Shown here: in pieces, positions 47,504-53,658 of the stretch
Layout of the letters: every line of letters begins with the position of its first letter
Numbering within the stretch: the first letter of the stretch is position 1
Assembly: GCA_030619925.1 (NCBI GenBank)
Contig: JAUXAL010000012.1
Coordinates: 1 to 62,964 of the forward strand
DNA length: 62,964 nt
Direction: 5' to 3'
From: Phycisphaerae bacterium
GTDB taxonomy: Bacteria > Planctomycetota > Phycisphaerae > Sedimentisphaerales > Anaerobacaceae
Notes under the pieces: generated by a model
Database searches by the model: none
What the model was told of the DNA's origin: nothing
Seen by the model: the letters and a program-made list of their open reading frames with translations, nothing else
Made by a program: the position numbers and the translations under genes

Positions 47504-47987
47504 TTTTTCTACCAGTATTGAGTGTTTGATACTTGTTGTTCGAACTATGATATCGGTCGCACTAATCCAATTTCCGAAGCTATATCAAAACCCTTGCATT
47601 TAGAGATGGAACACAGTTTGTCGACGAATAACACACAAATGTAGCTTGAAGGATTATGGGGTGGTTCTAATTGATAACTGATTACTGATTATTTGGGGTG
47701 GATCCCCGCCGACGACTTGCGGGGACAAGGATTGCCATACCTGTTCGTCACAATGACACGGAGAGATTGGAAAGGAAGACCGGGTTGCCGCCCATTCGGC
47801 CCTTCGGCTGCGCTCGGGGCAGGCTCTGCGTGGGAATGACCGTGTCGAATATCGAAACCCCACATCATCCGGACAGGCAAGGAATTCCGAATGATGAAGT
47901 TGTCAGGCGATAAATATGACTTGACGAATTGGCGAAGCATTCATACACTCATTTCTTTATTTGATCTCTATATTCAGGAATTAACAG
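47504..47987. other. 484-bp spacer, partly repeats
   Basis: No gene seen. 47504-47660 is unremarkable sequence. 47668-47690 has the GATAACTGATTACTGATTA word. 47695-47830 has CCCGCCGACGACTTGCGGGG and GCGCTCGGGGCAGGCTCTGCG type repeats. 47847-47905 has a degenerate copy of the fcl-tail family (GTGTCGAATATCGAAAC...GAATGATGAAGTTG). Confidence 0.5.
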
Positions 47988-50293: not shown

Positions 50294-50374
50294 CCCCACA
50301 CTTATGTGTGGGGAATGGATACCACGCTCGTGAGTGTGTGGATGTCTATGGATACCACACACGTGAGTGTGTGG
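50294..50374. repeat. REP-like hairpin cluster supplying the argF Shine-Dalgarno
   Basis: Three hairpins: CCCCACAC-TTAT-GTGTGGGG (50294-50313), CCACGCTC-GTGA-GTGTGTGG (50322-50341, imperfect) and CCACACAC-GTGA-GTGTGTGG (50355-50374). The last two sit in a near-direct repeat beginning ATGGATACCAC. The GGAGG at 50373-50377, six bases before the argF ATG, is partly made by the end of the third hairpin. Confidence 0.7.
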
Positions 50375-50383
50375 AGGTCTGAA

Positions 50384-51295
50384 ATGAGAAATTTCCTTTC
50401 CATAAGCGATTGTCCCGTTGAGCTGCTAAAAGAATTGCTGCGGACAAGCGCCAGGCTTAAGAGTTTATACGGCGTTGGCGGTAATGATTTATGCCTTTCG
50501 GGGAAAATCTTAGCGATGCTTTTTGAAAAGCCGAGCCTGCGGACCCGAATCAGTTTCCACGTTGCCATGACGGACCTCGGCGGCAGTGCGATTTACATCA
50601 AGCCCGAAGACATCGGCGGCATCGGCAGCCGCGAGCCGATCAAAGATTTGGCAAGAGTTCTGAGTCGATACGTCAACTGCATAATGGCACGCACCTTCGA
50701 GCACAAAACCATCACCGAGCTGGCTGAATACGCAACGGTGCCGGTTATAAACGCCCTGACGAACCGGCTGCATCCCTGCCAGGCGATGGCTGACGTACTT
50801 ACGATCCAGGAGCATTGCGAAGACATAAAGGGCGTGAAAATTGCTTTTATCGGTGACGGCAATAACGTGGCCCGGTCACTGGCTTTTGCCTGCGCAAAGC
50901 TGGGTATGAATATGGTCGTTGCTTCGCCGGCTGGTTACGAGCTCGATGCTGAAACAATCGAAAAGGCAAATCAAATATCAGCCGAGACCGTCCGGCAAAC
51001 AAACGACCCCGGCGTAGCTGTTCTTGATGCCGATATTATTTACACCGACACCTGGGTCAGCATGGGCCAGGAGGAGGAAAAGCAAAAGCGCCGTGCGGAT
51101 TTTGCAGGTTTTCAGGTCAATGCCGAATTGGTCAAGTCCGCACCGGCCAATGTCAAGATTATGCACTGTCTGCCGGCTTATCGCGGCTTTGAAATCACCG
51201 ATGAGGTCACCGAGTCGCCCAATTCGATTATGTTCGACCAGGCTGAGAACCGCCTGCACTTCCAGCGAGCTTTATTAAAAAAACTGTTGGGCTAA
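50384..51295 (+). CDS. argF: Ornithine carbamoyltransferase
   Basis: Forms citrulline from ornithine and carbamoyl phosphate; cytosolic trimer. 303 aa. Carbamoyl-phosphate loop FEKPSLRTRISFHV (SLRTR at 51-55), HPCQAMADVLTI, IAFIGDGNNVARSL, YTDTWVSMGQEEE and the ornithine-site HCLPAYRG are all present. ATG 50384 is chosen because GGAGG lies six bases upstream and the family-like start RNFLSISDCP follows. The in-frame codons back to 50306 translate the hairpin repeats (DTTLVSVW, DTTHVSVW) and are not credible protein. Last gene of the arginine operon. Confidence 0.95.
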   Translation: MRNFLSISDCPVELLKELLRTSARLKSLYGVGGNDLCLSGKILAMLFEKPSLRTRISFHVAMTDLGGSAIYIKPEDIGGIGSREPIKDLARVLSRYVNCIMARTFEHKTITELAEYATVPVINALTNRLHPCQAMADVLTIQEHCEDIKGVKIAFIGDGNNVARSLAFACAKLGMNMVVASPAGYELDAETIEKANQISAETVRQTNDPGVAVLDADIIYTDTWVSMGQEEEKQKRRADFAGFQVNAELVKSAPANVKIMHCLPAYRGFEITDEVTESPNSIMFDQAENRLHFQRALLKKLLG

Positions 51296-51301
51296 TTAAA
51301 A

Positions 51302-52288
51302 ATGACACATCATAGAATAATTATTGGTGATTCCAGATGCATGATGGAGGTGCCTAATGAGTCTATCCATCTGATTATCACATCTCCACCATACTGGCAA
51401 CTAAAAGATTACGGAAATGGTAGCCAAATAGGTTTTGATGATAGCTACGAAGATTATATTAATAATTTGAATATTGTCTGGAAAGAATGCCACAGAGTCC
51501 TAAATAAGGGTTGCCGTTTGTGCGTGAATATTGGTGACCAGTTTGCTCGCTCTGTTTACTACGGAAGATACAAGGTCATTCCTATAAGAACCGAGATCAT
51601 AAAGTTTTGTGAAACTGTAGGCTTTGACTATATGGGGGCAATTATCTGGCAAAAGGTTACAACCTGTAATACAACGGGCGGTGCAACAATAATGGGCTCA
51701 TTTCCTTTTCCGAGAAATGGGATTCTCAAAATTGACTATGAATTTATTCTGATTTTCAAAAAGCACGGCAGCGCACCTAGGGTTAGCAGAGAAATAAAAG
51801 AAAAGTCAAAGATTACAATTGATGAGTGGAACCGTTTTTTCACCGGCCATTGGAATATTCCAGGGGAAAAACAAGATAAACATCTGGCAGTATTTCCCGA
51901 AGAGGTGCCCCGCCGTCTAATCAAGATGTTCAGCTTCGTAAATGACACGGTTCTTGACCCTTTTCTTGGAAGCGGAACCACTTCTTTGGCGGCCAAAAAA
52001 CTCGGGAGAAACTCTGTTGGATATGAGATAAATCCGGATTTTCTCCAATTGATAAAAGAAAAGTTGGGGATATACCAAAAGATGATTTTTGAAGAGGACG
52101 ATTTTGAAATAAGCAGGCAGGATAAAGCAAGTATAGACTATAAAGAACTGGCCAAACAATTACCTTATACTTTCAAGGATCCTATCGAATTTGACAAGAG
52201 AGTTGACCCCAGAAAACTGCAATTTGGTTCAAAAATAAGTAAAGACAACCCCAAGAGGAAGACCATTAAATATGCAAGTAATAAATAA
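51302..52288 (+). CDS. DNA methyltransferase (N4-cytosine/N6-adenine, beta class)
   Basis: 328 aa. Catalytic motif IV TSPPYW is at 27-32, ahead of the SAM-binding motif I DPFLGSGTT (219-227), so the order is that of beta-class amino-methyltransferases; the SPPY form favours N4-cytosine, though N6-adenine enzymes are not excluded. Motif X-like residues follow near GRNSVGYEINPDF. The target-recognition region lies between. It starts six bases after argF, so it may ride on the arginine transcript, yet its base composition is visibly richer in A+T than the arg genes, a sign of acquisition. The last 17 bp overlap a predicted nuclease gene, giving a modification-restriction order. Confidence 0.88.
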   Translation: MTHHRIIIGDSRCMMEVPNESIHLIITSPPYWQLKDYGNGSQIGFDDSYEDYINNLNIVWKECHRVLNKGCRLCVNIGDQFARSVYYGRYKVIPIRTEIIKFCETVGFDYMGAIIWQKVTTCNTTGGATIMGSFPFPRNGILKIDYEFILIFKKHGSAPRVSREIKEKSKITIDEWNRFFTGHWNIPGEKQDKHLAVFPEEVPRRLIKMFSFVNDTVLDPFLGSGTTSLAAKKLGRNSVGYEINPDFLQLIKEKLGIYQKMIFEEDDFEISRQDKASIDYKELAKQLPYTFKDPIEFDKRVDPRKLQFGSKISKDNPKRKTIKYASNK

Positions 52289-52961
52289 ATTTTCCAAGTC
52301 TATCTGGAAAAAAGAAGAAGAAAAATTCAAAAAATTAACAGGCAAAACCAAAATACCTAATAAAAATTTAGATGAAGTTGATTTTCTTGTCCTTAGGGAA
52401 GAGAGTGATTTCGATAGGATTCCTGATATAGGTGGGTGTTATTGGATTTGGACTAACGAGAGAGTGAACCATAGGTTCCATAAACACGAAATTCCTGACA
52501 GGGTTAAGGCAGGAGAAGTTATTTATAATGGTATAGCGAAAGACAATGTTCGGCAAAGAATAAAACGCCATCTACTTGGTGATATGGAAGCCACCTGGTC
52601 AGGAATTAGCTTAGACATTTTTCTTTCTAGGCGGTCTAAGTCACACAGGAAAAAAGTTTTATCTTCAACAGGAAAAGTGCCTTATATTTTTATTGACAAT
52701 GAATTGCAACCAATCAGGGAAAGGGATTTAACTTTTAGATTAAATTTGTCTAAAGAGGAACGTGATTTTATTCAGAAATGTAAACTGGTTACGTGTTTTT
52801 TTAGAAACGGTATCAATATTTTTGAGAGAAAGCATAGGAAATTTACTTTTAAAATTTACTTCATAACTGGATTAGAACCCCTTTATTTAGAATATATAGA
52901 AAAAAGATGGCGAGAGAAATTTGGGCTGCCAAAGTTATGTTCGTATTCATCCGGTCGTTAA
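52272..52961 (+). CDS. Putative GIY-YIG-fold type II restriction endonuclease
   Basis: 229 aa overlapping the methyltransferase by 17 bp. Residues 55-60 (GCYWIW) and 84-87 (IYNG) resemble the paired GIY and YIG strands, Y57 and Y85 being the candidate catalytic tyrosines; R94/R96 in NVRQRIKRHLLGD fits the GIY-YIG arginine, and E144 (in FIDNELQPIRE) sits at a plausible distance for the metal-binding Glu. GIY-YIG restriction enzymes of the Eco29kI/Hpy188I type are known, and the gap between the two tyrosines is wider here than in homing nucleases, as in that group. The gene is AT-rich and Lys-rich, unlike its neighbours. The fold assignment is by motif reading only; pairing with the methyltransferase is the strongest support. 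Confidence 0.62.
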   Translation: MQVINKFSKSIWKKEEEKFKKLTGKTKIPNKNLDEVDFLVLREESDFDRIPDIGGCYWIWTNERVNHRFHKHEIPDRVKAGEVIYNGIAKDNVRQRIKRHLLGDMEATWSGISLDIFLSRRSKSHRKKVLSSTGKVPYIFIDNELQPIRERDLTFRLNLSKEERDFIQKCKLVTCFFRNGINIFERKHRKFTFKIYFITGLEPLYLEYIEKRWREKFGLPKLCSYSSGR

Positions 52962-53028: not shown

Positions 53029-53658
53029 GTGTATAGTAAAGATAGAAAAATTCTCGTTGCTACTACCAATCCCGGCAAAATCACTGAACTCAGAGCTATG
53101 CTCGTTTTGGATATCGAGTGGCTCGGTTTATCAGACTTCGGTGACATCGACGAAATCCAAGAAGACGGCATCGCATTTGCCGAGAACGCCCGCAAAAAAG
53201 CGGCCGGCTACGCTAAAGCCGCCGGCCTATGGACTATTGCCGACGACTCAGGACTGGTGGTTGATGCTCTCGGCGGAGCACCGGGCATAAAATCCGCGCG
53301 ATTCTCCGGTGAGAAACTAAAGGATGAGGATAGAACGCTAATAGACCATCGAAATATTGCGAAAGTTCTGGAACTTCTTAAAGGTTTACCGGAAGAAAAA
53401 AGAGCGGCAAAATTTGTTTGCTGCCTGTGTCTGGCAAGCCCTGAAAGAATATTAATCGAGACTCAGGGGACACTGGAAGGTCTTATAACCGACAGAGAGA
53501 TCGGAGAAAACGGTTTCGGCTACGACCCGATTTTCTTTGTGCCGCACCTGGACAAAACCGTCGCTCAGCTAACTCGCGAAGAAAAGAACGCAATATCGCA
53601 CCGTGGTAACGCAATCCGAAAATTAAAACCTCTGCTTGAAGAACTCCTTTGCGGCTAA
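53029..53658 (+). CDS. rdgB: XTP/dITP pyrophosphatase (RdgB/HAM1)
   Basis: A house-cleaning enzyme that hydrolyses non-canonical purine nucleoside triphosphates (dITP, XTP) to monophosphates; cytosolic dimer. 209 aa: TTNPGKITELRAML, EDGIAFAENARKKA, IADDSGLVVDALGGAPGIKSARFSG (central signature), ENGFGYDPIFFVP and the C-terminal ISHRGNAIRKL are all present. The start is GTG without a well-placed ribosome site (GAGG lies too far upstream), so the exact N-terminus is uncertain. It follows the restriction-modification pair by 67 bp. Confidence 0.93.
   Translation: MYSKDRKILVATTNPGKITELRAMLVLDIEWLGLSDFGDIDEIQEDGIAFAENARKKAAGYAKAAGLWTIADDSGLVVDALGGAPGIKSARFSGEKLKDEDRTLIDHRNIAKVLELLKGLPEEKRAAKFVCCLCLASPERILIETQGTLEGLITDREIGENGFGYDPIFFVPHLDKTVAQLTREEKNAISHRGNAIRKLKPLLEELLCG

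Follow-up and report, generated by a model that had tools for sequence, protein, structure and literature searches.

A predicted GIY-YIG endonuclease beside a probable CTAG methyltransferase at the argF-rdgB site of a Phycisphaerae bacterium

Eco29kI, Cfr42I and Hpy188I are among the small number of type II restriction enzymes of the GIY-YIG class (PMC4081073; this paper and those below are cited from portions of their texts). M.MthZI is reported to be an experimentally characterized DNA methyltransferase (MTase) that produces N4-methylcytosine (4mC or m4C) in CTAG, and the characterization of M.MjaI and M.BfaI to be unpublished but on record in REBASE (PMC5867850). Candidates for both activities lie side by side in the window, the whole 62,964-nucleotide stretch analysed here (positions 1 to 62,964 of contig JAUXAL010000012.1, assembly GCA_030619925.1, Phycisphaerae bacterium): the methyltransferase M and a 229-amino-acid (aa) protein, R, encoded by overlapping genes downstream of argF (Table 1). 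R.MjaI, the endonuclease that goes with M.MjaI, cleaves CTAG, as follows from its methyltransferase. We consider it quite likely that M is a resident CTAG methyltransferase whose endonuclease was exchanged in place for R, and that the pair constitutes a type II restriction-modification (RM) system. In the part of the literature searched, taken without REBASE, GIY-YIG and restriction at CTAG were nowhere brought together: the one text naming both does so in unrelated contexts, and texts naming both GIY-YIG and MjaI mention the two apart.

The M-R pair and its relatives

Judged by its sequence, M is a beta-class amino-methyltransferase. It matches PF01555 in Pfam (E 5.5e-45) and the type II MTase family PDLC03259 of PADLOC (E 9.8e-161, residues 1-319 of the 423-position profile), and its closest solved relative is 2zie, a 'Putative modification methylase' (E 2.4e-58). 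The motifs TSPPYW and DPFLGSGTT, pointed out in an earlier reading made from the letters alone (hereafter the sequence-only reading), are in place. Motif IV (SPPY) precedes motif I, with PF01555, as in the M.MthZI/HVO_0794 group. The SPPY motif and the relatives lead us to infer m4C as the product.

An MTase gene is adjacent to the R relative at all nine loci of the R family; linked separate genes for MTase and endonuclease, as in type II RM systems, are thus seen at 9/9 loci, and an R relative without an MTase neighbour, which would have counted against the sequence-only reading, at 0/9. At eight of them (L002-L008, L010) a window-type M stands directly upstream of the R relative. These foreign M-GIY pairs come from metagenome-assembled genomes (MAGs) labelled Nitrospirae, Bacteroidetes and its genera, Neomarinimicrobiota and Ignavibacteria. 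They keep the M-R order, with R 48-59% and M 63-75% identical to the window proteins, and M overlaps R in seven of the eight, the gap in L010 being 3 bases. The ninth locus, L009, has a different MTase, 243 bp downstream of the R relative. The likely type II RM system put forward in the sequence-only reading is supported by these neighbourhoods. In L002, a Nitrospirae MAG, a second type II MTase gene (PDLC03323; L002:2756-3793, + strand) lies 0.9 kb upstream of the pair, which suggests a defence cluster. R relatives were found in no plasmid, phage or viral contig. A single-sequence search of 392 sampled genomes of the phylum returned only the window's own R, and the R profile, run on 162 genomes of the order, gave no convincing copy in the 161 besides the window's; G395 has a weak partial match (E 8.2e-4, profile positions 76-117) on a 5.9-kb contig with no M.

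R is likely a GIY-YIG nuclease. Of the residues proposed on the sequence alone, Y57, Y85-N-G and R96-x3-H100 are invariant in an alignment of nine R sequences, window R included. The candidate glutamate E144 did not stand: its position reads E/K/D/N/N/N/K/N/D and it was rejected as the catalytic residue, E210 being invariant. E210 is likely the catalytic, metal-site glutamate of R. The AlphaFold2 model of R (predicted local distance difference test, pLDDT, 78.6) has UvrC and R.Eco29kI as structural neighbours with modest scores. R has no match to PF09568 (RE_MjaI) at E up to 10, whereas MjaI-type partners match in 6/6. The host genome holds six matches to the Pfam GIY-YIG family PF01541 over the cut-off (contigs C26, C126, C87, C107, C11, C79); at E 0.01 window R is not among the host-genome matches.

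Partners of M and the argF-rdgB site

The sequence-only reading had the whole M-R pair inserted after argF. We reject this, since M is common at the site in the host's taxonomic family. Of 90 genomes of the family, 32 have M at E 1e-80 or better, in 33 places; the set reaches 40 loci in 38 genomes with a fragment in G412 and six loci of the order, of which two, in G209, are pieces at a contig end. At 16/40 loci, window included, argF is directly upstream of M, and at 23/40 an rdgB-like gene follows M within 3 kb. M thus seems to have occupied the argF-rdgB site for a long time, and R alone seems to be the newcomer.

Two of the 40 loci are cut at a contig end, and partners were counted in the 38 uncut ones. 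An MjaI-type partner is present in 28/38. PF09568 matches 6/6 of these partners scanned (Pfam, E 1.3e-28 to 3.2e-68), the remaining ones being recognized by a profile built from nine partners. L034, L074, L081 and L082 have a small open reading frame (ORF) between M and partner; in L042 M is broken and the partner frame short. Three loci (L029, L071, L073) have a conserved 362-aa partner, five (L032, L077, L084, L086, L088) no recognized partner, and in L083 a truncated M is fused to remnants of a staphylococcal nuclease (SNase)-like domain and of MjaI. The GIY-YIG partner is found in the window alone (1/38).

Different partners occur within one well-supported clade of M. In a midpoint-rooted tree (317 columns, 45 of 52 sequences), window M groups with L029, L072 and L071 at an ultrafast bootstrap (UFBoot) of 100; L029 and L071 have the 362-aa partner, L072 has the MjaI type, and at each of the four loci M stands between argF upstream and rdgB downstream. 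The nearest Ms, compared over the first 317 residues, are those of L029 (89.6%) and L072 (86.8%). The foreign M-GIY pairs have their Ms in other parts of the tree (63-75% identical to window M versus 89.6% for L029). These interleave with MjaI-paired Ms, L002 grouping with L037, L038 and L092 (UFBoot 99) and L006 and L008 with L091 (UFBoot 97), which suggests repeated partner exchange.

The 362-aa partner shows, in an alignment from three genomes, an E...D...E-x-K...Q pattern in its carboxyl-terminal half that by eye looks like a PD-(D/E)XK nuclease. Pfam gives nothing credible in 3/3 and there was no credible library match. It may be a putative third endonuclease for the same site.

Window M is about 100 residues shorter at its carboxyl terminus than most relatives. 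PF00565 (Staphylococcal nuclease homologue) matches 9/9 of the carboxyl-terminal domains scanned, those of the eight foreign M-GIY pairs and of viral L011 (E up to 1, best 3.2e-9). At the 38 uncut loci this SNase-like domain is present in 28/28 MjaI-paired Ms and absent in 9/9 Ms with a 362-aa, GIY-YIG or no recognized partner, L083 having a remnant. A strict tie to MjaI partners is disfavoured because the Ms of all eight foreign M-GIY pairs carry the domain. It is probably non-catalytic: where the GRWLAY stretch of the thermonuclease has its arginine, a catalytic residue, 7/9 of the aligned domains have Asn and 2/9 Arg. The end of window M falls within a few residues of the ends of the L029, L071 and L073 Ms, close to where the SNase-like domain begins in relatives, which makes a sequencing error behind its short form unlikely. 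In the window's own genome no SNase remnant turned up close to M; the search found only an SNase-like frame of 219 aa that stands apart. A structure model of the MTase-SNase fusion (pLDDT 54.3) was too poor to use, and no report of such a fusion was among the literature matches listed.

Window-type methyltransferases also occur in IMG/VR viral contigs (L134-L144, the best 11 of 80 loci). Several are short and have neither SNase domain nor recognized endonuclease (L136, L138, L139, L141, L143), which would fit self-protection against CTAG restriction; viral L135 has M with an MjaI-type partner.

Predicted target, proposed exchange and alternatives

The target of the M-R pair is probably CTAG, as two lines suggest: the MjaI-type partners of related Ms, and the closeness of the L009 MTase to that of plasmid pFZ1. 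In pFZ1 an MjaI-family endonuclease adjoins an annotated MTase, which we take to be M.MthZI. The L009 MTase is 50.6% identical to the pFZ1 enzyme over 326 aa and 35% to window M; the R family thus appears to be accompanied by two MTase lineages, each of them pointing to CTAG. R is accordingly predicted to be a GIY-YIG isoschizomer of MjaI. The probable CTAG target and the missing SNase-like domain go beyond what the sequence-only reading had proposed.

M would methylate CTAG, probably on N4 of cytosine, and so protect the chromosome, and R would cut unmethylated CTAG in incoming DNA. In the family, M would be an old resident of the argF-rdgB site, where it usually carries a fused SNase-like domain and has an MjaI-type endonuclease gene next downstream. 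In the lineage of the window, where M is without the domain, the downstream partner would have been exchanged for a GIY-YIG endonuclease, with a distant M-GIY system as the presumed donor and the direction of the exchange likewise presumed. Such a switch would be tolerable because existing methylation protects against any endonuclease of the same site.

Several points weigh against this reading. The match of R to PF01541 is sub-threshold (E 0.047, 14.4 bits, cut-off 22.6) and that family matches 1/9 R-family members at E up to 1; no PDB chain matches R by sequence. With three GIY-YIG proteins of the same genome hhalign gives R a Prob of 1.6% (unrelated controls 0.1%), though in register over YNG...R...H, and the best Foldseek hit (E 0.65) is an unrelated protein, the first Eco29kI row having E 0.78. 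R.Hpy188I is likewise hard to detect as a GIY-YIG enzyme (PMC2630997). As window M and the pFZ1 MTase share only 34% identity (over 281 aa), the CTAG assignment rests on the partners and not on close similarity to a tested MTase. CTAG depletion gives it no support, because relatives without detected M are equally depleted. Finally, window M is without the SNase-like domain though the eight foreign M-GIY pairs keep it, and M or its coupling with R might be impaired.

The depletion itself is strong: 16 CTAG observed versus 185.8 expected from trinucleotides in 151 kb of the host genome, and 4 versus 69.7 in the window, two of these four sites being inside M (51777) and R (52627). A comparison of 37 genomes (36 usable, G427 being only N), all small samples of 3.5-151 kb, gave pooled observed/expected ratios of 0.086 in the GIY group, 0.108 in the 362-aa group, 0.150 in the MjaI group and 0.164 in 19 relatives without detected M, meaning no match at E 1e-80. 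Twelve genomes with an M-R pair did not differ from these 19 (Mann-Whitney p 0.56), and CTAG avoidance was rejected as proof of the target.

It is unlikely that R and M form a true pair with a target other than CTAG, through a change of MTase specificity or because the MjaI-type partners of the family recognize another sequence. The 34% identity to the pFZ1 MTase, the uninformative CTAG depletion and the fact that RE_MjaI membership alone does not fix a target would allow it, but two separate MTase lineages beside the R family both point to CTAG, and the L072 M, 87% identical to window M, pairs with an MjaI-type enzyme. We find it improbable that the system is decaying, with M shorn of its SNase-like domain, R a stray gene and restriction lost. 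Some other loci would fit decay: all five Ms without recognized partner at the 38 uncut loci are also without the SNase domain, that of L032 reads TSLPY in place of TSPPY, and L083 retains a truncated M with SNase and MjaI remnants. However, both window ORFs are intact and keep all invariant residues. Moreover, HVO_0794-like CTAG MTases (M.MthZI, M.MjaI, M.BfaI) measure 303-364 aa (PMC5867850), so the SNase domain is unneeded for CTAG methylation there and the short window M can still be active. That R is no restriction enzyme, being instead a repair or regulatory nuclease or a protein of another fold travelling with CTAG MTases, is very improbable: the weak profile and fold scores and the lack of any PADLOC model match (0 families at E up to 10) speak for it, but R relatives are tightly paired with M at 8/9 loci across several phyla, R keeps the invariant GIY-YIG residue set, and it fills the slot where relatives keep MjaI-type endonucleases.

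A proposal wider than the exchange of the endonuclease, which we hold only tentatively, is that the M locus between argF and rdgB acts as a docking site where nucleases of three unrelated kinds (the MjaI type, the GIY-YIG type and the 362-aa protein with its PD-(D/E)XK-like signature) swap while methylation continues, the apparently non-catalytic SNase-like domain of M being a coupling module that is kept with MjaI partners and dropped in the family with the others. If the CTAG specificity is true, R would be a GIY-YIG cutter of CTAG, and the locus would show with unusual clarity how, in nature, one endonuclease can take the place of an unrelated one next to a conserved methyltransferase and at a fixed chromosomal site. 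It could then be tested how the fold of a restriction enzyme can change while the host stays protected, and what role the SNase-like domain has.

Locus layout and comparison with described systems

The 17-bp overlap of M with R and the 6 bases between the argF stop and the M start agree with the sequence-only reading, which had also rightly described the pair as AT-rich: the guanine-plus-cytosine (GC) fraction is 0.386 in M and 0.332 in R versus 0.520 in argF, with 0.483 in rdgB and 0.486 in the whole window. Low GC of R was rejected as a sign of recent arrival, about which it says little because the R relatives have 0.29-0.34 GC in 8/8 loci measured. argF, M and R probably share a transcript. 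The downstream gene is presumably rdgB. At the 5' end of the argF ORF, window positions 50315-50380 hold two tandem 33-nt copies, 91% identical, and translation of argF may really begin with the ATG at 50384 rather than at the listed ORF start. Short ORFs at 47654-47940 encode the peptide CPERSRRAEW or frame-shifted kin, presumably a palindromic repeat, of a kind common between genes, in translated form.

Table 1. Features of the M-R locus (window coordinates unless a locus is named)
Feature	Position	Strand	Basis or remark
M, beta-class (probably m4C, CTAG) DNA methyltransferase, 328 aa, ATG start	51302..52288	+	ORF, PF01555, PDLC03259
M motif IV TSPPYW, residues 27-32	51380..51397	+	read from sequence; TSPPY in 12/12 aligned sequences
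M motif I DPFLGSGTT, AdoMet (S-adenosylmethionine) binding, residues about 219-227	51956..51982	+	sequence and alignment
M end; family-profile match stops at position 321	52262..52288	+	MjaI-paired relatives run ~100 aa further, SNase-like domain
R, predicted GIY-YIG restriction endonuclease, 229 aa, ATG start	52272..52961	+	ORF, residues, AlphaFold2 model
R GIY half-motif G55-C56-Y57	52434..52442	+	invariant in 9/9 aligned sequences
R YIG half-motif Y85-N86-G87	52524..52532	+	invariant in 9/9 aligned sequences
R helix residues R96-x3-H100	52557..52571	+	invariant in 9/9; compare R104-x3-H108 of R.Eco29kI
R E210, likely metal-binding Glu	52899..52901	+	invariant in 9/9; in predicted helix 203-216
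argF, upstream neighbour of M	50306..51295	+	ORF; stop ends at 51295
rdgB-like gene, downstream neighbour marking the site	53029..53658	+	ORF
Conserved 362-363-aa protein directly after SNase-less M, argF-rdgB site	L029:4783-5871	-
Same	L071:3355-4443	+
Same	L073:5976-7067	+

hrgA of Helicobacter pylori offers a precedent for replacement of an R gene (PMC4615327). Here, in distinction to that case, a predicted nuclease replaces a nuclease. To our knowledge, hrgA is not a replacement endonuclease for the same site. Window R has the GIY-YIG residue set of R.Eco29kI/Cfr42I (CCGCGG) and R.Hpy188I (TCNGA) too: R96-x3-H100 corresponds to R104/H108 of Eco29kI (PMC1952068), and the step of 11 from Y85 to R96 equals that from K73 to R84 of Hpy188I (PMC2630997). 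It differs from these enzymes in having no sequence match to a PDB chain and in its predicted target. The foreign M-GIY pairs differ in the SNase-like domain of their M, and their Ms resemble window M less than the nearest MjaI-paired ones do. With the MjaI/MthZI systems, made of a PF09568 endonuclease and an m4C CTAG beta-class MTase, the locus shares a homologous MTase (34% to that of pFZ1). Of the MjaI-type pairs, 26 Ms are 65-87% identical to window M, with the same gene order, often the same argF-rdgB site and, as predicted, the same CTAG target; in the window, M is without the SNase-like domain and the endonuclease is an unrelated, GIY-YIG-like protein.
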